Assembly (NCBI GenBank): GCA_016928995.1
Contig: JAFGJS010000067.1
Span: 1 to 55,447 of the forward strand
DNA: 55,447 nt
DNA from: Candidatus Sumerlaeota bacterium
GTDB taxonomy: Bacteria; Sumerlaeota; Sumerlaeia; JAFGJS01
Direction of reading: 5' to 3'
Positions 37,795 through 52,275 of the stretch are shown here, piece after piece; positions within the stretch are counted from its first letter, which is position 1, and each line of letters opens with the position of its first letter. The notes beneath the pieces were generated by a model. That model worked only from the letters and a program-made list of their open reading frames with translations. It had not been told where the DNA came from and made no database searches. The translations under genes and the position numbers were made by a program.

Positions 37795-38064
37795 ATGGAA
37801 ACACAGGTGGTGGTGGACATTTTACGGCAGGCGTTTCAGACGGCGTTGCTGCTGGCTGCGCCGGGGCTTGGATTCGCGCTGATCGTGGGGTTGATCGTCA
37901 GCGTGCTGCAAACCGTGACATCGATTCAGGAGCAAACTCTTGTTTTCGTGCCGAAGATGGTGGGCGTCGGGGCGGCGCTGCTGTTTTTCATGTCATGGAT
38001 GCTTGGCATGGTCATGCATTTCACGGAGTCGCTGTTTTTGCTCATCCCGGAATTGGTGAAGTGA
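37795..38064 (+). CDS. fliQ: flagellar type III export gate protein FliQ
   Basis: An 89-residue protein with two TM segments (about 13-40 and 50-75). The conserved features are the N-terminus VVDILRQAFQTALLLAAPGL, the loop SVLQTVTSIQEQTLVFVPKM and a second helix ending MLGMVMHFTESLF. Four copies join FliP and FliR in the export gate. The length is exactly that of the family. It is separated from fliR by a repeat element. Confidence 0.96.
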   Translation: METQVVVDILRQAFQTALLLAAPGLGFALIVGLIVSVLQTVTSIQEQTLVFVPKMVGVGAALLFFMSWMLGMVMHFTESLFLLIPELVK

Positions 38065-38069
38065 AAAAA

Positions 38070-38236
38070 GGGTCTAGGGTCTGGGGTCTAGGGTCTGGTG
38101 AATGATGCGCTGTCGCGCTGAAAAAGAAAAATGAGATTATCTGAAGATAATAAAACGGATGCGTTCTTCAATTCTCTTTAACGCGGCGAAAGCCGCTCCA
38201 TCCCCAAACCCCAGCCCCTAGACCCCAGACCCGCTC
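38070..38236. repeat. inverted element with GGTCTAGGGTCTGG tandem arms
   Basis: The left arm 38070-38107 repeats GGTCTAGGGTCTGG; the right arm 38199-38236 is its approximate reverse complement (CCCCTAGACCCCAGACCC). The centre holds a short perfect palindrome ATTATCT-GA-AGATAAT. It occupies the whole fliQ-fliR gap and could form a strong RNA hairpin that tunes expression within the operon. Confidence 0.75.
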
Positions 38237-38287
38237 AGAAATATGCAACGAGTGGTAAGGTTCATAATAAATCGTCGGGATCATTCC

Positions 38288-39073
38288 ATGTTCGACATCA
38301 TTCCATTCCTGCCTCTTGCCGCGGCGTTCACCTTGGTCTTTTTCCGTGTCGCACTGGTGATATCCATGTTGCCGTTGTTCGGCGAGCAGACCACTCCGAC
38401 CACTGTTAAGGTGTTGCTGGCGATGGCGCTGTCGCTGGCGTTGGTTCCGGCGGCGGACGTGGCATGGACGAACCTGCCAGCCACTGTGCCGCGCTTGATG
38501 CTGGCGTTGCTGCCGGAGGCGGTGTTTGCGCTGGCCATCGGGCTGACGACGCGCATTTTGCTGGAGACATCGCACATCGCGGGCGAGCTGGTCGGCTTGC
38601 AGATGGGATTTATGACGGCGAGCGTGGTGGATCCGGCGAACAATTCGCAGATCAGCCTTGTGTCGCAGTTCTGGCAAATCGCCACGATCCTGGTGTTTTT
38701 CATGATCAACGGGCATCACGTGGTGATCCTGGCGCTATCCCGTTCCTTCGACTTCTTGCCGCCATTGAGCGCCGCATTTCGCCCGGATTACCTGGAGTTT
38801 ATGAACCTGATGACCTTGCGGATGTTCGTAGTGGCGTTGCAGCTGGCGGCGCCGGTCGTGGTGGCGACCATGCTGGTGAATATTTGCCTGGCGCTGGTGA
38901 ACAAGGTGGCGCCGAACTTGCACGTGTTTATGGAGAGTTTTCCGCTGAGGATCTTGCTGGGACTGGCGATGCTGGTGACGTTGAGCGGCGCGATCGTGAC
39001 GATTCTCGCGCGCTATATCGGCGGCCTGGAGACTTCTTTGGCGGCTTTGTTGAAAATCGCGGCGGGGCAATGA
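38288..39073 (+). CDS. fliR: flagellar type III export gate protein FliR
   Basis: A 261-residue polytopic protein of the export gate. The start MFDIIPFLPLAAAFTLVFFR and the segments ISMLPLFGEQTTPTTVKVLL, GELVGLQMGFMTASVVDP, LVFFMINGHHVVILAL and the C-terminal SGAIVTILARYIGGLE are typical. An ATG at 38243 would add 15 polar residues unlike the family, so 38288 is preferred. flhB begins 30 bp after its stop. Confidence 0.95.
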   Translation: MFDIIPFLPLAAAFTLVFFRVALVISMLPLFGEQTTPTTVKVLLAMALSLALVPAADVAWTNLPATVPRLMLALLPEAVFALAIGLTTRILLETSHIAGELVGLQMGFMTASVVDPANNSQISLVSQFWQIATILVFFMINGHHVVILALSRSFDFLPPLSAAFRPDYLEFMNLMTLRMFVVALQLAAPVVVATMLVNICLALVNKVAPNLHVFMESFPLRILLGLAMLVTLSGAIVTILARYIGGLETSLAALLKIAAGQ

Positions 39074-39103
39074 TCCCGTTGATGAGAGGCAGGTGGTGGA
39101 GCG

Positions 39104-40201
39104 GTGCCTGAAGATAGCGGCGAAGAAAAATCAGAGCAACCATCGCAACGAAAAATTCACAAGGCGCATGAGAAGGGCGATTTCGCTTTCAGCAAGGAAG
39201 TTCCTGCGGCGCTGAGCTTCATCATCATCGTTGTGGTGTTCTTCATGTTTGGCGAGTACTTCGTGCTTCATATTGAAGGCGTGTGCGCGAAATATCTGGC
39301 GTTCGACCGTTACCTGGATTTGACGCCGAAAAGTTTTGTGGACTTGATGCTTGAGGCGACGGCGGACATGCTGCCAATTCTGGCGCCGGTGTTGCTAGGT
39401 GCAATGGTTGCGAGCATCGGCGGGAGCATGATGCAGACCGGTCCGCAGTTCAACGGCGAGGCGCTGTCGCTGAAACTGGAGCGCTTGCTGCCGGCCAACG
39501 GGTTGAAGCGCGTCTTCAGCTTGAACCAGTTAATGGAAGGCGTCAAGGCCATCGCCAAATTCACCCTGGTGGGAGTTGTGGCATGGCTGGCATTCAAAGG
39601 CGAATGGGTCAAATGGCCCTTGCTGCTTGAGCATTCGATCGAAGTGCAAATTGGTTATTTGCTATCCGTAACGTTGAAGATCGGCATGTTTATTGCCCTG
39701 ATGATGACCGTGCTGGCGGTTTTCGACTGGTTCTTTCAGATTTGGTCCTGGACGCAGAAGCAGAAGATGTCGCGCAAGGAATTGCAGGATGAGCAAAAGG
39801 ACACAGAAGGCAACCCGTTGATCAAGGGGCGTCAGCGCAACATCCAGATGCAGATGGCGATGCGGAGGATGATGGAGGAAGTGCCGAAGGCGGATGTGAT
39901 CATTACGAACCCGGAGCACGTCGCCGTGGCGTTGCGCTATGACCGGGAAAAGCACCTTGCGCCGATTGTAGTGGCCAAGGGCCAGGAGTATTTGGCGGCG
40001 CGGATCCGCGAAGTCGCCGATGAACATGGCGTGCTGCGCATCGAGAACAAGCCGCTGGCCCGGGCGCTGTATAAGAACTGCAAGGTGGGCGATATGATTC
40101 CGCTGGAATTCTACAAGACGGTGGCGGAGATCCTGGCATACGTCTACAGGGTCCAGAACCGGCTGGCGGAATGGCATACGGGCGCAGGCCTCAGGATCTA
40201 G
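39104..40201 (+). CDS. flhB: flagellar export switch protein FlhB
   Basis: Sets substrate specificity of flagellar export. The GTG start is followed by EDSGEEKSEQPSQRKIHKAH, four TM segments and a cytoplasmic domain with KGRQRNIQMQMAMRRMMEEVPKADVI (shown here as the linker, residues about 243-266). The autocleavage site reads N269-P270-E-H instead of the usual NPTH; the Asn-Pro needed for cleavage is intact. A-GG-TGG at about 39090 serves as ribosome site. The run ends here: flhA, often next, is absent, and a terminator follows at 40424. Confidence 0.95.
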   Translation: MPEDSGEEKSEQPSQRKIHKAHEKGDFAFSKEVPAALSFIIIVVVFFMFGEYFVLHIEGVCAKYLAFDRYLDLTPKSFVDLMLEATADMLPILAPVLLGAMVASIGGSMMQTGPQFNGEALSLKLERLLPANGLKRVFSLNQLMEGVKAIAKFTLVGVVAWLAFKGEWVKWPLLLEHSIEVQIGYLLSVTLKIGMFIALMMTVLAVFDWFFQIWSWTQKQKMSRKELQDEQKDTEGNPLIKGRQRNIQMQMAMRRMMEEVPKADVIITNPEHVAVALRYDREKHLAPIVVAKGQEYLAARIREVADEHGVLRIENKPLARALYKNCKVGDMIPLEFYKTVAEILAYVYRVQNRLAEWHTGAGLRI

Positions 40202-40743: not shown

Positions 40744-43700
40744 ATGGCAAAATTCCGTGTTTGGTTGCTGAGCGGCTGGATTGTCCTGCAGGCGCTATCC
40801 TCGTCCGCGATTCAGGATTTTCAGCCCTTATTAGGGCCGGTTCATGAGGACACGGAGTGGCTGACGTCCTATCCGTCAAGATTGGTAGGCACGGAAGGTC
40901 ATGCCGAGGTTCAGCGCCAGTTGAAGGAAAAACTCACCGCCATCCCCAACATCCAACTTTACGAACAAACTTTCACCCTCCTCACCCCCCAAACCATCGA
41001 TTGCCATTTTGAGATTCTGGATGAAGACTGGACTGGCGAGCGCTCCGTGCAGCTTTATCCGTTTTGGCCTTCGGGTGTCAGGCTGAATACGACCGAATAT
41101 GATGGCGTGACGACCGAAGTTCTATACATCGGAAGCGCTGATTATGATGAAATCCCGGCGCGCTCCCTGCGTGGGCGCGTGGCGGCGATGGAAGTGGTGG
41201 GCGGACGGAACTGGATCGAAGCGATGGCTTTCGGCGGCACGGCGATCATCGCTTTAGGCTCGGATCAAGCCCGGCAGATTGATTTTCATGAGTTTCTTTT
41301 TAATCATCCGTTGAAATCCCCCCGTTTTTTCCTGCCCGACGGCGAAGCGGCGCAAGCCTTGCGCGAGGGCAAGATTCGTAAAATCAAATTGATCAGCCGG
41401 CTGGAATGGCGCGAATCCGAGGCGCGGAACTATCTGGCGCTTGTGGCTCCAGAGGGCGGTTTCCCCTCGCTGGACGGGACGAAATTGACGCCGGAAGAAC
41501 TGAATGCGCGGCAGGCGCTTTGCATTGTCGCGCCGTATGATTCCATGAGCCTGATACCGGACCTGGCGCCCGGGGCGGATGTGGCCGTCGATACGGCCAC
41601 GGTCTTGAACGCCTGCCGCTATTATGCGGAGAATCCTCCCATCCGGCCGCTGTTGTTCGCTTTCATCGACGGCTATGGCATCAAGCAGCGCGGCATGCGG
41701 GAAATGCTCGTCGGCCTGGCCTCCACCCGCCGGGAAAAGAAACTGCAACAGCTCCAGGATCTGGATTTGCTGAAGGAATACAAGGTGCTCTACGCCTTGC
41801 TGCAGGAGACGGAGGCGGCCGAGGAACCGTTGAACGTGATTTACCACTATAAAGGTTTGCGGCGGTACATTACGGACGAAGTGGCCCGCGAAGTCGTTGC
41901 AATTGAAAGCATCCTGCATCCTCTGCGCCTCAAAGCGCATCGCTTGGCGCCCGGACCGGAAAAAGACCGGCTGACGGCGCAGATTGATCCGTTGAAAGAA
42001 AAACGGGCGCGTTTTTACGCGGCGCAGAAACTGCTCGTCAGCAGTTTGAAGGTGGACGACGCCAACCGCGAGCTGGCGCAGATGCTTTGGGACCGGGTGC
42101 GCCGGCGCATCGTAGGCCAGTTGGAGGAGCTTCAGCAGATTCTGGAGCGCGACAACGAGCGGGACCGTTTGCGCTATAGCATGTTGATTCAATTGGGCCT
42201 TTCCACGCCGGAGATTCGGCAGGCGGCGATGGCGGATGATGATAAGGCCCTGGAAAAGGCGGTTGAGGCTGCGGGATTGGGCACAGAATTTGAGCGGCCG
42301 CTGGTTTTTGTGCTGGCGTTCGATCTGTCCGACGATGGCATCGCCGCCGGACCTTGCCTCTTTGACCGCCTGATGCAAAAGGATGAACGGCTCAATTCGT
42401 ATGCCTTCCGGCGCTGGTTCGAGCAGCGGCCGAAAACGGATACGCGCGACATCTGGACCCCGGAGCAAATGAAGGCCGTGAATCTCCTGCCCTTGACGAC
42501 ACAGGAAGAGGCGCATTCTTTCGTGATGCCGAATATGCCCTCCGTCACGACGGTGGCGCAGTCCTGGGGGACGCCGGCAGTGACGTGGATGACCTTGGAC
42601 TGCTGGCGGAACAAGGCCGACACGCCGTATGATCTCGCGCAATCGTTGGATTGGGGGCGGTTGGATCCGCAGGTGGATGCGGCGCTGACGCTCTTGGACG
42701 CCCTGGCGCATGACACGACGCTGGGCGAGAACGTGAATGTCGTGCCGAACTGGCGGCGCATCGAGGGCGCGATTGTCGATGTGGCCGCCGGGCAGCCGGT
42801 GCCGAGCGTGCCGATGGAAGGCTATCTGACGACGTTTTACAACGGAACGATCAGCGCGGGCGTGACGAACTGCGGCTGGCTGAATAATTACGGATTCAGC
42901 GCGATCCGGCAGTTGGAATTTTACAAGACGGGCATCGACGGCCGCTTTATGATGGACGCCGTGCCGGTGCATACCTTTGAGGCGGGGGGCTGGTTCCGCA
43001 ATCTGTTTGTTCAGTCTTATAAATTGGCGGAAGACGGGAAGATCATCCGGGCGCTGGATTTCAAAAAATCCGGCAAGGGCGTTCAGGCGACCGCGCTGAT
43101 GACCTCCAACAAGAACGCAGTGCTCGCGGTTCCCTTTGATTGCGTGGAATTAAACACCTTCGATTGTTTCGATCCTCGGTTCATGATCTACCTGGGCAAT
43201 ACCTCTTTATTGGACGTGCGTCGCGGCGGTTCGCCACAACGGATGAACCTGTCGATCGCCGGCGGGATTTTGAGCGCGCTGGTTGAGCCGGATATGCGCT
43301 GGCAGCTGATTCTGCGCGCCGGCGTTACGCGCAACCGCATGATCCTGGTGGACATGGGCGCCGTGGAGAAGACGAAGGGGAAGACGATCCGGGAGTCGAT
43401 GAAGGGCTTCCATGTCGATTCCAATTTGCCGCAGCATCCGTATTACATGGCGGCGCGGGACTTCATCCGGCTGGATCAGCGCCGTCTGTCGGATTACGAG
43501 AGCGCGGGGATCAAGAGCAAGGCGATTGACGATCTGACCAGTCAGAGCGTGGCATGGCTGAAGAAATCCGAGGACGCCTTGAAGCGCGATGACGGCGGAG
43601 ACCATTTCAAGTACGCTGGCGCGGCTCTGGCCAATGAAGTGCGCTCCTATCACGCCGTGCGCAACACCGCCAATGACGTGATTCGCGGAGCGATCTTCCT

Positions 43701-45765
43701 CCTGTTGCTGCTCGCGCCGTTTTCCTTCGCGCTGGAGCGCCTGCTGTTCAGTTTCCCAAGCGTATATCGACAGATCGTGGCGATGCTTTGCATCTTCCTG
43801 GTCATGGGCGGCATTCTCTGGAGTTTCCATCCGGCTTTTCGCATCACCAGCCAGCCGCTGATGATTCTGATGGCGTTCGGCATCATTTTTATGAGCGTGC
43901 TGGTGATTTTCATGATCTATGCGCGCTTCGATTCCTCGCTGGAAGAGGTGCGCAGCGGGCGGGCGGAGTCCAGCGGCGCGAAGACATCGCGCGCGGGAGT
44001 GGCCACAACGGCCTTCCGGCTGGGCATTTCGAACATGCGCAAACGCATCCTGCGCACAACCTTGACGGGCATCACGGTGGTGCTGGTGACTTTTGCGCTG
44101 CTGTGCTTCACTTCGACCAGCAATTATTCGGGTCAAAAAGAATACAAACTGGACGCCAAGCCGCGTTTCACGGGCGTGTTGCTGAGCCAGCCAGGTTCGC
44201 GGGCGTTCGACGCCAAAGCGCTGTCGTATTTGAAGACCATCGTCGGCGATCAATTCACGATGGTTACGCAATATTGGTGGATCGATCCCTGGCGTGCGCG
44301 CTGGCGCATCCATATGGCCAACGCCAAAACCGGCAAGGTGGCTTCTTTGCGGGCCTGCCTGGGGATGTCGCCGGATGAGCATCTGATCACGGGGATCGAC
44401 AAGGTCTGCCCGAATTGGGATCGCTTCGCCGAAGGCAAAGGGTGCTATATTTCCAAATCGATGTCGGAGGAGCTCGAAGTGCAGGCCGGCGACACCGTTG
44501 TCTTGAACGGCATCGACCTGGAGCTGCTTGGCACATTTGAATCCGACGCGTTTGACGAGCATGTGCAATCGATCACCGGCGATCCAGTGACACCGGTAGA
44601 TTACGAGAGCATCGGCACCGAGCAGCGCAATACGATTGTCGGCTTCTCGCTGGAGGCGCTGGCGATGCAAATCGAATCAGGCGCCATGCTGGAGGACAAC
44701 AAAGGCTTGTTGTTCATCTCGTCGAAGACGATCGCCGTGGTGCCGTCGGAAGTGCTGGATGGCCAGAGCGAGGTGTCGATGCGCAGCGTAGCCATCCCGA
44801 CGAAATCCGCGGATGAGGCGCAGCAACTGGCCGGGCGGTTGATTCAACGGTTGGCCTTCCCGATCTTCTATTCATCGGGCGACAACGTGCGGGTTGTAGC
44901 CACGACTCCCTTGCTGCCCAAGCCGCCGAAGAGCCTGCTGATTCCCCTGCTGATCGCGGGTCTGATCATTTTCAACACGATGCTGAGCTCCATCGCCGAG
45001 CGCCGCGGGGAGATTCATATTTACACCAGCCTGGGCTTGGCCCCGCTGCACGTGGGCTTTCTGTTCCTGGCGGAGGCGGTCACGTATGGCTTGATGGGCT
45101 CCATTTTCGGCTACGTTGTGGGGCAGGGCGTGGCGACGGTGTTCTCGAATCTGGGCTGGATGGGCGGCCTGACCCTGAACTATTCCGGCACCCAGACGAT
45201 CTTTGTGATGGCGCTGGTGATCGGCGTGGTCATCATCTCCTCGCTGATTCCGGCGTACCTGGCGGGCAAGCTGGCCGTGCCCAGCAACGAGATGACCTGG
45301 AGCGTGCCGCGTCCCGAGGGAGACACGATCCGGGCGTCGCTGCCGTTTACGGTCAACGCACGGACGGCGAACGGCATGATGGCCTTCCTGCTGGAGTATT
45401 TCGACGCGCACCGGGAAGGGAGCATCGGGCATTTCAGCACGGATAATTTACAAACGAAGCTCGCGCGCACGGGCGAGCTGGATGTCGTGATGATCGAGGG
45501 AAGGGTGTGGCTGGCGCCATACGACCTCGGCGTGCGGCAGGAAGTGTGCATTAGGATCGAAGGAACAGGCGACAGCGACGTTTATTCGATCGAACTGGAA
45601 CTGCACCGCGGGGCGGGGCAGGTGAATTCGTGGTGGAGGCTGAACCGGACGTTTATCGCCGACTTGCGCAAGCAGCTGCTGGGATGGCGCAAACTGAGGG
45701 CGGAACGGGCGTTGGCTTACATCCACGAGGGCGATCAATTGTTGCAACAAAGCATGGCGCAATAA
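40744..45765 (+). CDS. degenerate M28 peptidase fused to FtsX-type ABC permease
   Basis: A 1673-residue membrane protein. It starts with a signal-like segment and an M28-type (PA plus zinc-peptidase) ectodomain, about 25-320. M28 metal sites are lost: the H-x-D motif reads AP-Y-D (Pro264, Asp266), the GAxD motif is G277-A-D-V, and the Glu-Glu pair is replaced in AFIDGYG. Helical, coiled-coil-rich and beta regions follow to about 970. Three TM segments (about 981-1060), a fourth near 1105, an extracytoplasmic region, and a C-terminal FtsX triad (about 1395-1530, SIAERRGEIHIYTSLGL) complete it. A soluble tail of about 130 residues ends it. It heads a six-gene operon with a second FtsX permease and an ATPase. 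Peptidase activity is unlikely; substrate or peptide sensing is inferred. Confidence 0.8.
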   Translation: MAKFRVWLLSGWIVLQALSSSAIQDFQPLLGPVHEDTEWLTSYPSRLVGTEGHAEVQRQLKEKLTAIPNIQLYEQTFTLLTPQTIDCHFEILDEDWTGERSVQLYPFWPSGVRLNTTEYDGVTTEVLYIGSADYDEIPARSLRGRVAAMEVVGGRNWIEAMAFGGTAIIALGSDQARQIDFHEFLFNHPLKSPRFFLPDGEAAQALREGKIRKIKLISRLEWRESEARNYLALVAPEGGFPSLDGTKLTPEELNARQALCIVAPYDSMSLIPDLAPGADVAVDTATVLNACRYYAENPPIRPLLFAFIDGYGIKQRGMREMLVGLASTRREKKLQQLQDLDLLKEYKVLYALLQETEAAEEPLNVIYHYKGLRRYITDEVAREVVAIESILHPLRLKAHRLAPGPEKDRLTAQIDPLKEKRARFYAAQKLLVSSLKVDDANRELAQMLWDRVRRRIVGQLEELQQILERDNERDRLRYSMLIQLGLSTPEIRQAAMADDDKALEKAVEAAGLGTEFERPLVFVLAFDLSDDGIAAGPCLFDRLMQKDERLNSYAFRRWFEQRPKTDTRDIWTPEQMKAVNLLPLTTQEEAHSFVMPNMPSVTTVAQSWGTPAVTWMTLDCWRNKADTPYDLAQSLDWGRLDPQVDAALTLLDALAHDTTLGENVNVVPNWRRIEGAIVDVAAGQPVPSVPMEGYLTTFYNGTISAGVTNCGWLNNYGFSAIRQLEFYKTGIDGRFMMDAVPVHTFEAGGWFRNLFVQSYKLAEDGKIIRALDFKKSGKGVQATALMTSNKNAVLAVPFDCVELNTFDCFDPRFMIYLGNTSLLDVRRGGSPQRMNLSIAGGILSALVEPDMRWQLILRAGVTRNRMILVDMGAVEKTKGKTIRESMKGFHVDSNLPQHPYYMAARDFIRLDQRRLSDYESAGIKSKAIDDLTSQSVAWLKKSEDALKRDDGGDHFKYAGAALANEVRSYHAVRNTANDVIRGAIFLLLLLAPFSFALERLLFSFPSVYRQIVAMLCIFLVMGGILWSFHPAFRITSQPLMILMAFGIIFMSVLVIFMIYARFDSSLEEVRSGRAESSGAKTSRAGVATTAFRLGISNMRKRILRTTLTGITVVLVTFALLCFTSTSNYSGQKEYKLDAKPRFTGVLLSQPGSRAFDAKALSYLKTIVGDQFTMVTQYWWIDPWRARWRIHMANAKTGKVASLRACLGMSPDEHLITGIDKVCPNWDRFAEGKGCYISKSMSEELEVQAGDTVVLNGIDLELLGTFESDAFDEHVQSITGDPVTPVDYESIGTEQRNTIVGFSLEALAMQIESGAMLEDNKGLLFISSKTIAVVPSEVLDGQSEVSMRSVAIPTKSADEAQQLAGRLIQRLAFPIFYSSGDNVRVVATTPLLPKPPKSLLIPLLIAGLIIFNTMLSSIAERRGEIHIYTSLGLAPLHVGFLFLAEAVTYGLMGSIFGYVVGQGVATVFSNLGWMGGLTLNYSGTQTIFVMALVIGVVIISSLIPAYLAGKLAVPSNEMTWSVPRPEGDTIRASLPFTVNARTANGMMAFLLEYFDAHREGSIGHFSTDNLQTKLARTGELDVVMIEGRVWLAPYDLGVRQEVCIRIEGTGDSDVYSIELELHRGAGQVNSWWRLNRTFIADLRKQLLGWRKLRAERALAYIHEGDQLLQQSMAQ

Positions 45766-45852
45766 TGAAATAATGCGGGCCGGCGCAGTCCGTCCCGGCG
45801 TTCGACACATGGTTATGTTGATAGACGACAGCGGAAGGGGAACTATGTTCGC

Positions 45853-47850
45853 ATGATGCGCGAAGACCGAGAGTTTCAAGAATTTCGCGATTTGATGCAA
45901 AGGCCGGACAAGTACGAAGACGGTTTTAATCTTCGCACTGTGATCATGGCGCTTTTTGTCGGGATTTTAATGACGCCCGCGCAGATGTATATGCAGCTGG
46001 TGGCCGGCATCGAGATGGGATCCGCCGCGCAATGGGTCACGGTGATCCTGTACGTGGAAGTGGCGCGACGGTCCTTCACCAAGCTGAAACGGCCGGAAAT
46101 TTTCGTCCTCTTCTATATGTGCGGAGCGGTGATTCATTCGCCGGGTCAGGATTTGCTCTGGCGCCAGTTCATTGTGCAGAGCGAAGAATTCCGCAAGATG
46201 GGCATCATCGAATTTATCCCCAGCTGGTATGCGCCGAACGATCCGGATGTGCTGGGTCAGCGGTCATTCTGGAAGATTCAATGGATGCTGCCGATCGGCA
46301 TCGCGATCTTCACGATGTTTATTCAACGCTTGGACCACTTCGGTCTGGGATATGTGATGTATCGTTTAACGGCGGATGTTGAGGACCTGCCGTTTCCGAT
46401 GGCGCCGGTGCAGGCCATGGGCATGACCGCGCTGGCTGACGCTTCGGACCAGAAAGACACGTGGCGCTGGCGCACGTTCAGTTACGGAGCCATGGCCGGA
46501 GTCGCGTTCGGCGCGATTTATCTGGCCGTGCCGAACATCACCAGCGCGATTTTCTCCGAGGGTTTGCGGATCCTGCCTTTGCCATTTGTCGATCTAACCG
46601 GCTACACAGAGCGATATTTGCCGGCGATGCCGGTATTGGCCAGTTTCGACCTGACATTTTTCGTGACAGGCATGGTGCTGCCGTTTTGGGCGATGGTCGG
46701 GAGTTTCATCGGTCTGCTTTTCACACTGGTGTTCAATCCGCTGCTTTACAAGGTCGGCGTGCTGGACAGCTGGCGCGAAGGCGTCGGCGCGATCCAGACG
46801 ATTCAGTCCAACACGATGGACTTTTACCTCAGTTTCAGCATTGGTCTGGGGCTGGCGGTGGCCGTGATCGGCATCATGCACATGATGAGCAAGTACAAGG
46901 AAAAGAAGCGTGAGTTCGCCGATCAAGGCAGTCCGAAAATGCAATGGTCGAAGCTCTTTGAGACGCCCAAGGGGCGCGGCGACATTCCGATCTGGGTGGC
47001 GCTGGGGATTTACCTGTTTTCGACGTGCTCGTATATCGCGCTGGGCTACTGGCTGATCAACGTCGCTTCGCCGACATTCGAAGGCACGAAATTTCCCTTG
47101 TGGCTGCTGATGTTCTACGGATTTGTCTACACGCCCGTGATCAGCTACGTGTCCACGCGTATGGAGGGCATCGTTGGCCAGCAGGTGGGCATCCCGTTTG
47201 TGCGTGAGGCGACGTTCATTCTCTCCGGTTATAAGGGCGCGGCGGTGTGGTTCGCGCCGATTCCGATGTACGATTATGCGCGTCAGGCGCAGTTCTTCAA
47301 GACGACGGAGCTCACCGGGACGAAATTCACCTCGCTGATCAAGACCGAGATTCTGATCTTCCCGATCATGATGGTCGGCATGATGCTCTTCAGCCAGTTC
47401 ATCTGGTCGATTGACAACGTTCCGAGCGAGCTGTTTCCCTATGCCAATGAGTTCTGGGAACTGCGCGCATATCAGCAGGGCCTGATTTTCACGTCCACCC
47501 TGCCGGGCGAGGCGGCGAGTCCGTTCCGCGAGGCGTTCAATCCGTATTACCTGGGGCTGGGCTTTGCGCTGGCGCTGGCGGTCTATACGGTGCTGGCGCA
47601 TTTCGGCTTGCCGATCTTCCTGGTTTACGGCGTGGTGCGCGGTCTGGATCAGTCCGTGCCGCATGCGATCATCCCGATGTTCATCGGCGCGCTGGTCGGG
47701 CGTTTCGGCTGCCGGAAATGGTTTGGCGATCTTTGGCCTCAATATCGCATTGTGTTCGCCGCGGGATTCGTGGCCGGGGTCGGTTTGATCTCGATGTTCA
47801 GTCTTGGAATTGTGTTTATGAGCAAGAGCGTGATCAAACTGCCGATGTGA
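45853..47850 (+). CDS. OPT-like polytopic transporter
   Basis: A 665-residue inner-membrane protein with roughly 13-15 hydrophobic segments. The general layout resembles oligopeptide-transporter (OPT) and DUF6785-like proteins, with a Pro/Met-rich loop (DLPFPMAPVQAMGMTALADA) and a C-terminal GLPIFLVYGVVRGLDQSVPH. I base the family on layout and these loops, with moderate certainty. The substrate is unknown; peptides are possible given the peptidase-like and PqqD-like neighbours. It starts 87 bp after the M28-FtsX gene and is followed by the next gene after four bases. A second ATG three bases on is an equally good start. Confidence 0.7.
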   Translation: MMREDREFQEFRDLMQRPDKYEDGFNLRTVIMALFVGILMTPAQMYMQLVAGIEMGSAAQWVTVILYVEVARRSFTKLKRPEIFVLFYMCGAVIHSPGQDLLWRQFIVQSEEFRKMGIIEFIPSWYAPNDPDVLGQRSFWKIQWMLPIGIAIFTMFIQRLDHFGLGYVMYRLTADVEDLPFPMAPVQAMGMTALADASDQKDTWRWRTFSYGAMAGVAFGAIYLAVPNITSAIFSEGLRILPLPFVDLTGYTERYLPAMPVLASFDLTFFVTGMVLPFWAMVGSFIGLLFTLVFNPLLYKVGVLDSWREGVGAIQTIQSNTMDFYLSFSIGLGLAVAVIGIMHMMSKYKEKKREFADQGSPKMQWSKLFETPKGRGDIPIWVALGIYLFSTCSYIALGYWLINVASPTFEGTKFPLWLLMFYGFVYTPVISYVSTRMEGIVGQQVGIPFVREATFILSGYKGAAVWFAPIPMYDYARQAQFFKTTELTGTKFTSLIKTEILIFPIMMVGMMLFSQFIWSIDNVPSELFPYANEFWELRAYQQGLIFTSTLPGEAASPFREAFNPYYLGLGFALALAVYTVLAHFGLPIFLVYGVVRGLDQSVPHAIIPMFIGALVGRFGCRKWFGDLWPQYRIVFAAGFVAGVGLISMFSLGIVFMSKSVIKLPM

Positions 47851-47854
47851 TGCG

Positions 47855-48766
47855 ATGAGCAAGGAGCAAAAAGGGCTGTGGCTGGCTTGGGCGGGATGGC
47901 GCTGCCGGATGCCGGAAGACTGGCGGCCGGTGCGCATCGAGGGCGGCTGGAAGAACGGCCTGTTCGTGCTCAGCGACGCTGAGACGCCGCTGTTGCAGAT
48001 CAAGTGGTGGCGTCCGGGGCAGAAACGCTTTAACGCCGCAGGCTGGATCGAAAAGCGGCTGCATAAAATGAAGGCCGGTCCGCAGGCTGGCGGCGCGCCC
48101 CATCCAACGGATTTTGATTCCGTGGCATGGGCGCCGGGCGAGCCGGGAGTGCGCGGATTCTGGTACGGGTATTGCGCTTCGGCGGACATGATGCTGGAAC
48201 TCGTGATCAGCCCGGAGGCCTCGAAGAGTCAGTCGCGGCGGATTCAGCGCGGCATGCTGGAGTCGATGCGCGCGAGCGGCGTGGATGAGCCGGTGAAGTG
48301 GGCTGTGTACGCGGCAAGTTTCGAGACGCCGCCGGGATTTGAGCTGGCGGAGAAGCATCTGCATCTTGGCGATGTCTCGCTCCTGCTGACGGCGCCGAAA
48401 AACCGGCGGATGATGGTGCGGCAGGTGTACCCGGCGGAACTGGCGCTCGAGCGGCGGAAACTGGATCGCTGGATGATGCAGAAGGTGTATCAGCAGGCGC
48501 GGAAATACAAGCCGCATGAAGATCCGCAGCCCTGGACGCTGGATCTGGCATCGAGCTGCGCGGAAGGGCTGGTGCGGCGCGGGCGGCGGCGGATCGCCTG
48601 GCCGCTGGGATGGATCCGGCCGCGCGAGGCGATCACCGCGGCGTTGCATGACGCCGATGTGAATCGCCTGTTGATCGCGGAATACGAGGCGCCGCGCGAG
48701 GCGGATGAAGCGGTTTTGCGTTCGACGCTGCTCGCGATGAATTGGGCGATGCGCGACGATGCATAA
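47855..48766 (+). CDS. unrecognised soluble protein in the FtsX/PqqD operon
   Basis: A 303-residue protein with no signal peptide or TM segment. I do not recognise the family. It is Trp- and Arg-rich. The N-terminal half (WAGWRCRMPEDWRPVRIEGG, LFVLSDAETPLLQIKWWRP) and the central part (KWAVYAASFETPPGFELAEK, VSLLLTAPKNRRMMVRQVYP) have the same strand-turn pattern, suggesting two copies of one alpha/beta domain. It is translationally close to both neighbours (four and three bases), so it belongs to the same membrane operon. It may be a cytoplasmic partner of the ABC or PqqD-like protein. Confidence 0.6.
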   Translation: MSKEQKGLWLAWAGWRCRMPEDWRPVRIEGGWKNGLFVLSDAETPLLQIKWWRPGQKRFNAAGWIEKRLHKMKAGPQAGGAPHPTDFDSVAWAPGEPGVRGFWYGYCASADMMLELVISPEASKSQSRRIQRGMLESMRASGVDEPVKWAVYAASFETPPGFELAEKHLHLGDVSLLLTAPKNRRMMVRQVYPAELALERRKLDRWMMQKVYQQARKYKPHEDPQPWTLDLASSCAEGLVRRGRRRIAWPLGWIRPREAITAALHDADVNRLLIAEYEAPREADEAVLRSTLLAMNWAMRDDA

Positions 48767-48769
48767 ATT

Positions 48770-49135
48770 ATGAGCGGCGACAAGAACAACACGATCTCGC
48801 GAAGCCGGGCCATGCAGGGCCGGCCGGAGCAATTGCCGGCCGTGAAGCGCGAGGAACGCGAAGACGGCGGGGTGCTGGTGACCGTCGAGATTCCCCGCAC
48901 CGGCGTGCTGAAACTGGTGCTGGGAGTTGGCACGGTGGAGCGGACTTTCGGCTTGGACCGCTTCGGGCGCGAGATTTACGAGGCGTGCGACGGCAAGAGG
49001 ACTGTTCAGGCCGTTTGCGATCAGTTCTCGAAAAAGCACCAGGTGACACAGGGCGAAGCGGAACAGGCGGTGTCCACGTATTTGAAGACGCTTGTGTCCA
49101 AAAGCTTGGTTGCGATTGCAATTGAGCGGCGGTAA
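48770..49135 (+). CDS. PqqD-like (RRE-fold) protein
   Basis: A 121-residue protein whose C-terminal 85 residues match the PqqD winged-helix pattern (FGLDRFGREIYEACDGKRTV, AVCDQFSKKHQVTQGEAEQA, YLKTLVSKSLV). PqqD and related RiPP recognition elements bind leader peptides and present them to modifying enzymes. No radical-SAM enzyme or obvious precursor peptide is in the window, so the peptide partner is unknown. The N-terminal 45 residues form extra strands. It lies between the unrecognised gene and the minimal FtsX gene in one operon. Confidence 0.8.
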   Translation: MSGDKNNTISRSRAMQGRPEQLPAVKREEREDGGVLVTVEIPRTGVLKLVLGVGTVERTFGLDRFGREIYEACDGKRTVQAVCDQFSKKHQVTQGEAEQAVSTYLKTLVSKSLVAIAIERR

Positions 49136-49176
49136 GATTAAACTTAGAGTTGGGCAAGCGGAAACGGAAACGAATC

Positions 49177-49890
49177 ATGGCGACACAGCGGCAAAATCAT
49201 ACAAGCTTGGTGGATCGAAGCGGACAAGTCCGCCGACAGCGGCAGCTGACCGGCAAACAGGTGCTGTTGATGGCGTGGAAGAACATCACCGTGCGCATGG
49301 GGCGGTCGATGCTGGTGACGAGCGGCATCGTGCTCGCGCTGGCGTTCCTGACGTACATCATGAGTTCGGACGCGATTCTGCGCAGCGTGCTTGAAAACGC
49401 CCCGCCGAGCGTGAAGGAGACGTTGTCGGAAAGCGGAAAATTCGCCGTGCTGGAAGATGCGGACGCCCAGATTCAAACGCGCTGGATGGTGGGGCTGGCC
49501 TTGCTCGTCAGTTTCGTCGGCATCCTGAACGCGATGCTGCTCAGCGTGACGGAGCGCTACGCGGAGATCGGCACGATGAAGTGCCTGGGCGCCTTGGATA
49601 GCCTGATTGTGCGGCTTTTTCTGCTGGAGAGTTTCTTTCAGGGAATCGCTGGCACAACGGTGGGGATCTTGATCGGCTTGCTGCTGGCCTTTACGGAGAG
49701 CCTCTTTGGATTCGGCTGGACAGTGGCGGAGGGCGTGCCGCTGATGGGGCTGGTTCCATGGAACGGGATTTTCTCGATCATCGGCATCGCCATGCTGGCC
49801 GGAGTGGCGCTGACCGTGGCTGGAGCGCTTTATCCCGGATGGCGCGCGGCGAAGATGAAGCCGGTCGAGGCGATGCGCGCGCAAGTTTAA
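49177..49890 (+). CDS. minimal FtsX-family ABC permease
   Basis: A 237-residue permease of the MacB/LolC/FtsX class. TM1 (SMLVTSGIVLALAFLTYIMS) is followed by only about 45 extracytoplasmic residues, then three TM segments with SVTERYAEIGTMKCLGALDS between TM2 and TM3. Typical MacB-type proteins carry a ~200-residue periplasmic domain here; it is missing. The partner with the large ectodomain is probably the 1673-residue protein of the same operon. I chose the ATG at 49177; a TTG-initiated extension to 49150 adds nine basic residues. The ATPase gene follows after 60 bp. Confidence 0.85.
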   Translation: MATQRQNHTSLVDRSGQVRRQRQLTGKQVLLMAWKNITVRMGRSMLVTSGIVLALAFLTYIMSSDAILRSVLENAPPSVKETLSESGKFAVLEDADAQIQTRWMVGLALLVSFVGILNAMLLSVTERYAEIGTMKCLGALDSLIVRLFLLESFFQGIAGTTVGILIGLLLAFTESLFGFGWTVAEGVPLMGLVPWNGIFSIIGIAMLAGVALTVAGALYPGWRAAKMKPVEAMRAQV

Positions 49891-49950
49891 CGCAGGCTGA
49901 AAAAAACGACGCAAATCAAATAGCAAATAGGAAAGCATGGAGCGCAGATC

Positions 49951-50775
49951 ATGGCCGAGGAACAAAAGCAAAACACCGCCGTGGCAAACGGCGATCAAGG
50001 AAAAACCGATGAGGAGCAGGCGAAGGAATTGCTCTCTTCGCACGTGGTGCGCGCCGTCGGGCTGACCAAGGTGTATGAGATGGGCGGCGAGAAGGTGCAC
50101 GCCTTGCGCGGCGTGGATCTGACCGTGGATCGCGGCGAATACGTCTCGATCATGGGCCCCAGCGGTTCCGGCAAGAGCACGCTGTTCAATATGATCGGCG
50201 GTCTGGACAAGCCGGACACGGGCGAGGTTTTCATCGACGAGGTGGACATCGCTTCGCTGGACACGTTCGAACTGGCCTGGCTGCGCTGCCACAAGATCGG
50301 CTATATCTTCCAGACCTTCAACCTGATTCCGGTGGCCAGCGCGCTGGAGAACGTGATGATGCCGATGCTGTTCGCGGGCATGTCGCAGGCCGACGCGCAA
50401 GACAAGGCGGCGGATATTCTGAGGAAAGTCGGCTTGGAAAAGCGCCTGTTGAACAAGCCGAATGAGCTTTCCGGCGGTCAGCAGCAGCGTGTGGCTTGCG
50501 CGCGGGCCTTGGCCAATGATCCGGCGATCATTCTTGCGGACGAGCCGACGGGCAACCTGGACTTGAAAACGGGCGAGGAGATCATCCGCATTCTGGGCGA
50601 GTTGAAGAGCGAGTTCGGCGTGACGGTGATCAGCGCGACGCACGACCATAAGATGCTGGCCGCGTCGGATCGCGTGATTGTGCTTACGGACGGTCAGATC
50701 ACGAAAATCAAGAAACGCAGCGAACTCAAGATTCAGGAAGGCACCATCGAAGGCGGGCAGGACTTGTTCGATTAA
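49951..50775 (+). CDS. ABC transporter ATPase (LolD/MacB/FtsE type)
   Basis: A 274-residue ATPase that powers the FtsX-type permeases upstream. Walker A GPSGSGKST, Q-loop near IFQTFNLIPVASALENV, signature LSGGQQQRVACARAL, Walker B AIILADEPTGNLD and the H-loop SATHDHKM are all intact. The N-terminal 30 residues are a charged extension not found in LolD. GGAG lies eight bases before the ATG. The gene ends the operon and overlaps the convergent Trm112-like gene by four bases. Confidence 0.93.
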   Translation: MAEEQKQNTAVANGDQGKTDEEQAKELLSSHVVRAVGLTKVYEMGGEKVHALRGVDLTVDRGEYVSIMGPSGSGKSTLFNMIGGLDKPDTGEVFIDEVDIASLDTFELAWLRCHKIGYIFQTFNLIPVASALENVMMPMLFAGMSQADAQDKAADILRKVGLEKRLLNKPNELSGGQQQRVACARALANDPAIILADEPTGNLDLKTGEEIIRILGELKSEFGVTVISATHDHKMLAASDRVIVLTDGQITKIKKRSELKIQEGTIEGGQDLFD

Positions 50776-51306: not shown

Positions 51307-52275
51307 TTATTCCTGTGTGTACGCCTGATAGCGTTCGGCGATCCGGGCCGTTTGCGCGTCGCCAACATGGAAGATGAAACGATAGCGGAAATGCAGGCTA
51401 TGGCCGGATAGCAGTTTGTAATCGCCAGTTCCCTCAGGTTTTTTCTCGAAGTCGTGCACGCCAAAGGGATTGGCGGCGAACAGGCCGTAGTCGCGGGCGT
51501 GCCACCAGGTGGGATGGATCGGATTGTCCGGGTGATCGAAGATGGCCGCGCCGACGGTTTTGCCGTCGATCTCGCCCCAGTCATCGACCCAGTTTGCGCG
51601 TTTGCCCCAGGCGTCGTCGTTGCTCTGGCCTTCGCTATTGAGGATGGCGCCCGTGGCGGCTTCGCCCCGATGGCGTAGTTGCGGCGCAAGGCGCAGCGCC
51701 ATCGTCCCCTCCTTGGTGTCGCCGAAGACGACATCGCCATGAGAGGCGATCAGCTCGATCTCGTAGTCGATGATCAGGTCTTCGCCTTCGTCGCGCAATG
51801 TGATGGCGCGGCGGTCGGTGCAGATCGTCTCGCCTTGATGGGTCGTCCAATCGCAATGCATTTTGACGCTGCAGGCGCCGTCGCTCGTTGCGACAGCGCA
51901 TGTTGTGACCTTGATGTCTTCCTTGATCCAGAAATCATAACCGTTGACATCGCCATGCGCGTACCACAGTCCATTGTGGTGGGTGTGGTCATGCTTTTCG
52001 TGCGCACGTTCCTCCATCGGGTAGAGCCGGGTCATGACGAGGCCATATGGGCCGTAGACGGGATTAAGCGCCGGCCGGGGCACGCCGCGCAGGAGCAGCA
52101 CCGCGCGAGTCTTGCCGTTGATTTCGAGCGCGATGGTGCTTGGGAAGTCTGTTGATTCAGTCTTTGAAAGGTTCATGGCGTCTTCCGGCTGTGTGGAATT
52201 GGCGCGGACGGCAGGATTCGCGCAGAGACCGGCGGCGATGACGGCGGCCAGTGTGAATGTCGTTGTTTTGAACAT
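51307..52275 (-). CDS. secreted DUF6807 (PmoA-like) protein
   Basis: A 322-residue exported protein. The signal peptide ends near NPAVRANS. The conserved block HDHTHHNGLWYAHGDVNG, followed by DFW, is the hallmark of the DUF6807 family, abundant in Planctomycetes- and Bacteroidetes-type polysaccharide users. Further motifs are GWGEIDGKTVGAAIFDHPDN with HPTWWHARDYGLFAANPFG. Function is unproven; the His cluster suggests metal or sugar binding. AGGAG lies nine bases before the ATG. It is monocistronic, divergent from nothing and unlinked to the glycan cluster at 12-21 kb. Confidence 0.8.
   Translation of the reverse strand: MFKTTTFTLAAVIAAGLCANPAVRANSTQPEDAMNLSKTESTDFPSTIALEINGKTRAVLLLRGVPRPALNPVYGPYGLVMTRLYPMEERAHEKHDHTHHNGLWYAHGDVNGYDFWIKEDIKVTTCAVATSDGACSVKMHCDWTTHQGETICTDRRAITLRDEGEDLIIDYEIELIASHGDVVFGDTKEGTMALRLAPQLRHRGEAATGAILNSEGQSNDDAWGKRANWVDDWGEIDGKTVGAAIFDHPDNPIHPTWWHARDYGLFAANPFGVHDFEKKPEGTGDYKLLSGHSLHFRYRFIFHVGDAQTARIAERYQAYTQE

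Follow-up and report, generated by a model that had tools for sequence, protein, structure and literature searches.

Six linked genes from a Sumerlaeota bacterium encode most of an unnamed cell envelope machine with two FtsX-type half-permeases and an OPT-like carrier

The window analyzed here is the whole of contig JAFGJS010000067.1 (55,447 nucleotides; assembly GCA_016928995.1) from a Candidatus Sumerlaeota bacterium, whose genome comprises 4.5 Mb in 161 contigs. Six open reading frames (ORFs) in this window, designated g1 to g6, all lie on the plus strand with intergenic gaps of 87, 4, 3, 41, and 60 bases. Together they encode most of an unnamed cell envelope machine with a strictly linked core:

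40744-45765, plus strand: g1, a giant FtsX-type half-permease of 1673 residues with a pseudo-M28/PA ectodomain, extra transmembrane (TM) helices, an FtsX core, and a cytosolic C-terminal domain
45853-47850, plus strand: g2, a polytopic carrier of the OPT superfamily, 665 residues
47855-48766, plus strand: g3, 303 residues, with tandem Mog1/PsbP/DcrB-like folds and no Pfam family
48770-49135, plus strand: g4, a small PqqD/RRE-type protein of 121 residues (PqqD domain at 48938-49111)
49177-49890, plus strand: g5, a small FtsX half-permease of 237 residues from its ATG (FtsX domain at 49489-49863)
49951-50775, plus strand: g6, a LolD-type ATP-binding cassette (ABC) ATPase of 274 residues

An alternative start for g5 is possible at a TTG codon at 49150, upstream of the ATG. 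All coordinates and gaps that an earlier note, made from the DNA letters alone, had given for these six tightly packed genes were confirmed. The note called the locus a six-gene membrane operon; the six genes stand, but g3, g4, and g6 are predicted to be cytosolic, so that the locus is not entirely a membrane operon, and relatives often carry a seventh gene, g0, which encodes a protein with DUF6785 and DUF6784 domains.

Linkage of the core was assessed in a sample of 386 genomes. g2 was found in 24 of these; strong matches to the g1 ectodomain (E < 1e-26) fell in exactly the same 24 genomes, as did g5 at E < 1e-35, and the membrane half of g1 was confirmed in 24/24. The other g1 ectodomain matches (E > 1e-19) mostly resembled ordinary M28 peptidases in shorter frames. 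g3 was present in 12 genomes, all of them inside the g1/g2/g5 set. The chance of such set overlap is ∼1e-38 and ∼1e-16, values uncorrected for shared ancestry, and the real significance is therefore lower. Twenty-one genera are represented among the 24 genomes. When named genomes were scanned, 25 g2 loci emerged, in records labeled as Phycisphaerae and other Planctomycetota, Opitutales and Verrucomicrobia, Kiritimatiellota, Lentisphaeria, Omnitrophota, and Sumerlaeota; these records are metagenome-assembled genomes, and single taxon labels may be wrong.

g1 adjoins g2 in 44 of the 46 scorable loci (those in which g2 has 3 kb or more of upstream sequence), and the two genes usually overlap or lie less than 200 bases apart. 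Among the 30 best-covered loci, g6 was found in 21, g4 in 20, g5 in 17, g3 in 16, and g0 in 13. Gene orders were read with profile models at the named loci and at loci from further genomes, and three types emerged: g0-g1-g2-g3-g4-g5-g6 (type A), g0-(g3-g4)-g5-g6-g1-g2-g6' (type B), and, in other Sumerlaeota, g0-g1-g2-g5-g6, to which g4 and a second g6 are in some cases added (type C). The earlier note had proposed looking for conserved co-occurrence of the six genes; they are kept together across genomes, and both g4 and g2 occur with the cluster. Flanking genes vary between genomes, and a Pfam tally of the flanking proteins (batches of 52 and 50) found each family in three members at most. 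One lineage-specific exception was seen: related GAF-GGDEF (diguanylate cyclase) genes lie directly behind or near g6 in five genomes (loci L121, L122, L123, L130, and L131).

The g1 protein scored 47.2 bits against FtsX (PF02687; cutoff, 25.5) and can be divided into the following parts:

40819-42720, plus strand: ectodomain (residues 26 to 659), with an M28 aminopeptidase fold, a large helical insertion, and a PA-type region
43678-43917, plus strand: extra hydrophobic helices (approximately residues 979 to 1058), ahead of the FtsX core, from a hydropathy scan
44941-45270, plus strand: FtsX C-terminal core (PF02687; residues 1400 to 1509), with a conserved ER(R)xEI...G segment
45271-45762, plus strand: cytosolic C-terminal domain (residues 1510 to 1673), conserved in relatives, with PFDLGV...RKQxLxWR

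A large periplasmic domain (approximately residues 1124 to 1398) separates TM1 and TM2, a MacB_PCD or MacB-like core domain was found in g1 relatives, and the cytosolic C-terminal domain is kept throughout the relatives. The predicted structure of the ectodomain (mean predicted local distance difference test [pLDDT] score, 86.4) superimposed on the M28 aminopeptidase 1AMP with a Z score of 24.9 and a root mean square deviation of 2.7 over 257 residues, and its fold matches reach PA-containing enzymes and the transferrin receptor. Pfam does not detect M28 in the window g1, while its matches exceed the cutoff in g1 relatives; the protease-like ectodomain noted earlier is thus borne out by the predicted structure and by the relatives. 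The M28 motif of zinc ligands and catalytic glutamates (HxD, D, EE) was intact in no g1 relative readable at those positions. Since this metal ligand motif is lost, the ectodomain should bind rather than cut, and the model suggests a pseudopeptidase suited to binding. Nicastrin has an M28 pseudopeptidase ectodomain, and transferrin receptor 1 likewise combines an M28 fold with a PA region, has lost its metal ligands, and uses the fold for binding. Unlike either, the g1 ectodomain forms the periplasmic portion of an ABC half-permease. In three genomes (G354, G222, and G077; loci L127 to L129) LysM domains precede the pseudo-M28 region, and g1 reaches ∼2400 residues. At one other locus (L062:4657-9949) g1 is broken into two overlapping frames, through either decay or assembly error.

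The second half-permease, g5, scored 59 bits against FtsX (cutoff, 25.5), and its periplasmic loop between TM1 and TM2 is only ∼42 residues, with no large periplasmic domain. The g5 family has three loop sizes (∼40, ∼150, and ∼310 residues). The earlier description of a permease without the normal periplasmic domain therefore holds for the window protein, but the small loop is one of three variants and not a general property. g6 matched ABC_tran with 117 bits; LolD was its top NCBIfam model (233 bits), although under that model's own cutoff of 307.75. The motifs GPSGSGKST, LSGGQQQR, and ILADEPTG and the H-loop were read intact in its sequence.

g5 lies beside g6, away from g1 and g2, in nine genomes (G150, G287, G163, G300, G320, G330, G354, G222, and G077). 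In the three with LysM-bearing g1 proteins, the g1 clusters lack g5, which is found elsewhere beside a second g6. In G150 and G287, g3-g4-g5-g6 forms a separate module; each of these genomes has three g1 genes, three g2 genes, and a single strong g5, and G320 has two, two, and one. The engine (g5-g6, often with g3-g4) is thus separable from the g1-g2 sets (often with g0). Because several g1/g2 sets occur with one g5, one engine appears to serve several sets, and the simplest reading is that g5 is a common half-permease that pairs with each g1. Type B clusters hold two g6 genes, which suggests that each permease half can have its own ATPase. The identical distribution of g1 and g5 (24/24), together with the pairing of g5 and g6 far from g1, argues for one mixed ABC complex instead of two independent transporters. 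The heteromeric complex of two FtsX halves that the earlier note envisaged, here made up of two separate families, is thereby strongly supported, and a physical complex is very probable.

The proposed carrier, g2, is the best-conserved member of the system (53% mean column identity in alignment A3). OPT carriers are generally known to be stand-alone transporters. g2 passes the cutoff for this family (PF03169), yet it is tied to an ABC motor. Since g1 and g2 are nearly always adjacent and their numbers match in most genomes, coupling of the machine to g2 is likely. Profile comparison related g0 weakly to g2 (hhalign probability, 65%); no g0 was found upstream of g1 in the window. The host genome contains six DUF6785 genes elsewhere than at the window locus. 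Five stand-alone DUF6785/DUF6784 genes lie on contigs C70, C85, C9, C112, and C124 (loci L132 to L136), with neighbors that include genes for GH42 and GH2 glycosidases and TldD-like proteases; their products may be free carriers or in-trans partners of the window g1. In another genome, a second g2 copy (G221:C78:1008-2930) is interrupted by a stop codon, which reflects decay or assembly error.

g3 matched no Pfam or NCBIfam family. Its predicted structure (pLDDT, 90.5) resembled 3hlz (Z score, 12.1), human MOG1 (9.9), and SciW (9.8), and because hydropathy indicated no TM helix and reading revealed no obvious signal peptide, the protein is probably cytosolic. g4 scored 38 bits against PqqD (PF05402; cutoff, 23.4), and the family motif is conserved (alignment A7), although g4 fell under the cutoff of the PqqD equivalog TIGR03859 (31.5 bits versus 46). 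The earlier note had suggested a scan for small precursor peptides in conserved neighborhoods; a search of gaps and flanks found no small ORF conserved between loci. Two weak precursor peptide matches (E ∼0.007) were discarded, as they were not common to different loci. No radical SAM or other modifying enzyme gene was conserved next to the cluster in the neighborhoods of relatives. With neither precursor nor modifying enzyme alongside, the PqqD domain does not indicate biosynthesis of ribosomally synthesized and posttranslationally modified peptides (RiPPs).

A second g0-g1-g2 set is present in the host genome on contig C108 (loci L043 and L137), and no g5 or g6 was found within 10 kb downstream of it. 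That this set must use the window engine became less likely with the discovery of another g5-like gene, a weaker match (132.8 bits), on contig C152; near it, profile models found no g3, g4, or g6. On one side the C108 set is flanked by a gene for a BadF-kinase/GKRP-SIS (MurQ-like) fusion and on the other by an exopolysaccharide cluster (SLBB, Wzz-like, and ligase-like genes). In a g2 tree, the type A clade (records of Phycisphaerae, Opitutales, and Omnitrophota) includes the window copy and that of G006, a genome from the host's class, while the C108 copy clusters with other Sumerlaeota. Judged from this tree, the window locus was probably acquired by horizontal transfer.

By sequence, the core fits a Type VII ABC system (MacB/LolCDE/FtsEX/YbbAP-like). 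The Escherichia coli YbbAP-TesA system pairs a Type VII ABC transporter with a periplasmic hydrolase (PMC12646458) and is, by analogy of parts, the closest characterized analogue: both combine an FtsX-type permease with extra TM helices, a LolD/YbbA-type ATPase, and a periplasmic partner with a hydrolase fold. The TesA enzyme is, however, a separate and active lipid hydrolase, whereas here a dead M28 peptidase is fused to the permease; in addition, the two permease halves here are distinct proteins that differ from one another, with an OPT carrier as a constant partner. LolCDE also has two unlike FtsX half-permeases and a LolD-type ATPase, but g1 and g5 scored only 14.8 and 53.8 bits against the LolC/E model TIGR02212 (cutoff, 362.45), and elsewhere in the host genome a separate LolC/E-like protein is encoded next to an ATPase (G000:C97). 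FtsEX and MacAB share the Type VII core and ATP-driven periplasmic work; they differ in that the present cluster lacks a division gene context and has pseudopeptidase and OPT partners instead. The window cluster contains no MacA-type adaptor gene, and none is conserved among relatives.

The earlier note knew of no named system with this content, and literature searches (DUF6785; PqqD with FtsX; M28 with FtsX) found no paper on it. Relatives of the g1 membrane half are, however, already cataloged in PADLOC as parts of CARF proteins (CARF_m8). The CARF_LolE_TM models of this entry matched g1 proteins with 129 to 193 bits over the FtsX core and into the C-terminal domain. For the window g1 the score was 164.6 bits (E = 7e-49; residues 1330 to 1578, positions 44731 to 45477), compared with 34.1 bits for an ordinary LolE-like control from the host genome. 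Pfam matched no CARF domain in g1, although divergent CARF domains can escape Pfam. From these sequence matches, a link of g1 to relatives with CARF-type nucleotide sensing is possible.

Taken together, these results are compatible with a heteromeric Type VII ABC machine in which an OPT carrier works with a pseudopeptidase that holds a peptide-like envelope ligand, a reading that we prefer but hold tentatively. g1 and g5 would form a dimer in the inner membrane, seated on LolD-type ATPases (g6), and ATP binding and hydrolysis would move the periplasmic pseudo-aminopeptidase ectodomain of g1. This noncutting ectodomain would hold the ligand, which might be an oligopeptide, a peptidoglycan stem peptide, or a protein tail, for instance, and as it moves it would pass the ligand to, or gate, g2. 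g2, often with g0 as a second OPT-like carrier, would take the ligand over the inner membrane. g3 and g4 would act as cytosolic adaptors, either accepting the ligand or modulating the ATPase via the C-terminal domain of g1. The parts of this scheme differ in strength: mechanotransmission is probable; a peptide-like ligand, suggested by the modeled fold, is plausible at somewhat less than an even chance; and inward direction is doubtful. A bolder proposal, that the Type VII motor physically drives or gates the OPT secondary carrier and that a shared g5-g6 engine serves several interchangeable g1/g2 receptor-carrier sets per cell, is speculative. LysM in the g1 proteins of three genomes and the MurQ-like fusion beside the C108 copy hint at a link to peptidoglycan.

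Several observations weigh against this scheme. Type VII systems do mechanical work on the periplasmic side, and their substrates are typically not passed across the membrane (PMC12646458). The identification of g2 as an OPT carrier is narrow, with 29.5 bits against a gathering cutoff of 25.8, and its profile matched no solved structure among Protein Data Bank sequences. In G150 only one g1 adjoins a g2, and in the G150/G287 pair two of the three g2 genes are not beside g1. For g3 and g4, several genomes that bear g1, g2, and g5 gave no match, and these two genes are therefore accessory or have diverged. LysM is limited to three lineages and is missing from most g1 proteins, including that of the window, and the MurQ-like neighbor was seen at one locus only. 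No conserved substrate gene, precursor, or shared metabolic neighbor was found in the neighborhoods examined, and the ligand class is thus read from folds alone. Of the two grounds on which the earlier note proposed a peptide substrate, the pseudopeptidase fold was borne out and is suggestive of binding, but nothing in the surroundings of the PqqD domain points to RiPPs; the substrate is still something that we infer.

A different role for the same core would be extraction of lipids or lipoproteins in the manner of LolCDE or YbbAP-TesA, with g1, g5, and g6 pulling an amphipathic molecule from the outer leaflet of the inner membrane to the ectodomain and the OPT protein supplying or flipping the lipid. 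LolD is the nearest model for g6, the extra TM helices of g1 recall those of YbbP, the fold of g3 is similar to that of Eag chaperones such as SciW, which bind transmembrane segments, and the typically periplasmic action of Type VII systems, one of them paired with a hydrolase (PMC12646458), is in keeping with such a role. We nevertheless consider it unlikely, given that g1 and g5 score far under the LolC/E cutoff, that the separate LolC/E-like protein is already encoded beside an ATPase, and that the conserved partner is an OPT carrier and not a LolA-like protein or a lipase. Less probable still is a regulator of envelope remodeling like FtsEX, in which the pseudopeptidase would sense or take position on peptidoglycan while the ABC motor switches a cell wall enzyme or the OPT carrier. 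The pseudoenzyme ectodomain, the LysM domains, the MurQ-like fusion adjoining the C108 copy, and the FtsEX precedent speak for it, but the cluster has no conserved hydrolase gene alongside it, most g1 proteins lack LysM, and one to three copies per genome are easier to reconcile with variable substrates than with a single division-type function.

RiPP maturation or export, with g4 binding a leader peptide and the ABC and OPT proteins exporting the product, is highly improbable. Although the PqqD domain of g4 is above its cutoff with the family motif conserved, g4 is under the equivalog cutoff, flanks and gaps hold no conserved small ORF, no modifying enzyme is conserved, and RRE models also catch non-RiPP helix-turn-helix proteins (PMC7470986). 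That unrelated transport genes sit together by chance might be argued from flanks that differ in each genome and from the dispersal of cluster parts in several genomes. The phyletic pattern of g1, g2, and g5, however, is identical even where they are dispersed, and gene order recurs over several phyla. The pattern refutes this reading, to which we attach almost no probability.

The heteromeric Type VII machine would be an unnamed, widely scattered addition to a small set of such ABC systems, distinguished by its constant OPT partner and by the dead peptidase within the motor. If the complex is real, an ATP-driven mechanical motor is coupled to a secondary-type carrier, and the DUF6785/DUF6784 families and g3 gain a first functional context. 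The layout of one engine with several heads makes subunit exchange directly testable, and the system is found in hard-to-culture phyla with poorly known envelope biology.

Immediately upstream of the cluster in the window, on the same strand (37795-40201), lie flagellar export genes that are probably unrelated to it; one was identified by Pfam as FlhB (396 bits), and the two genes before it resemble FliQ and FliR. Downstream, on the minus strand, a gene for a DUF6807 protein (51307-52275; 201 bits) is followed by HDOD-like and CheD-like genes.

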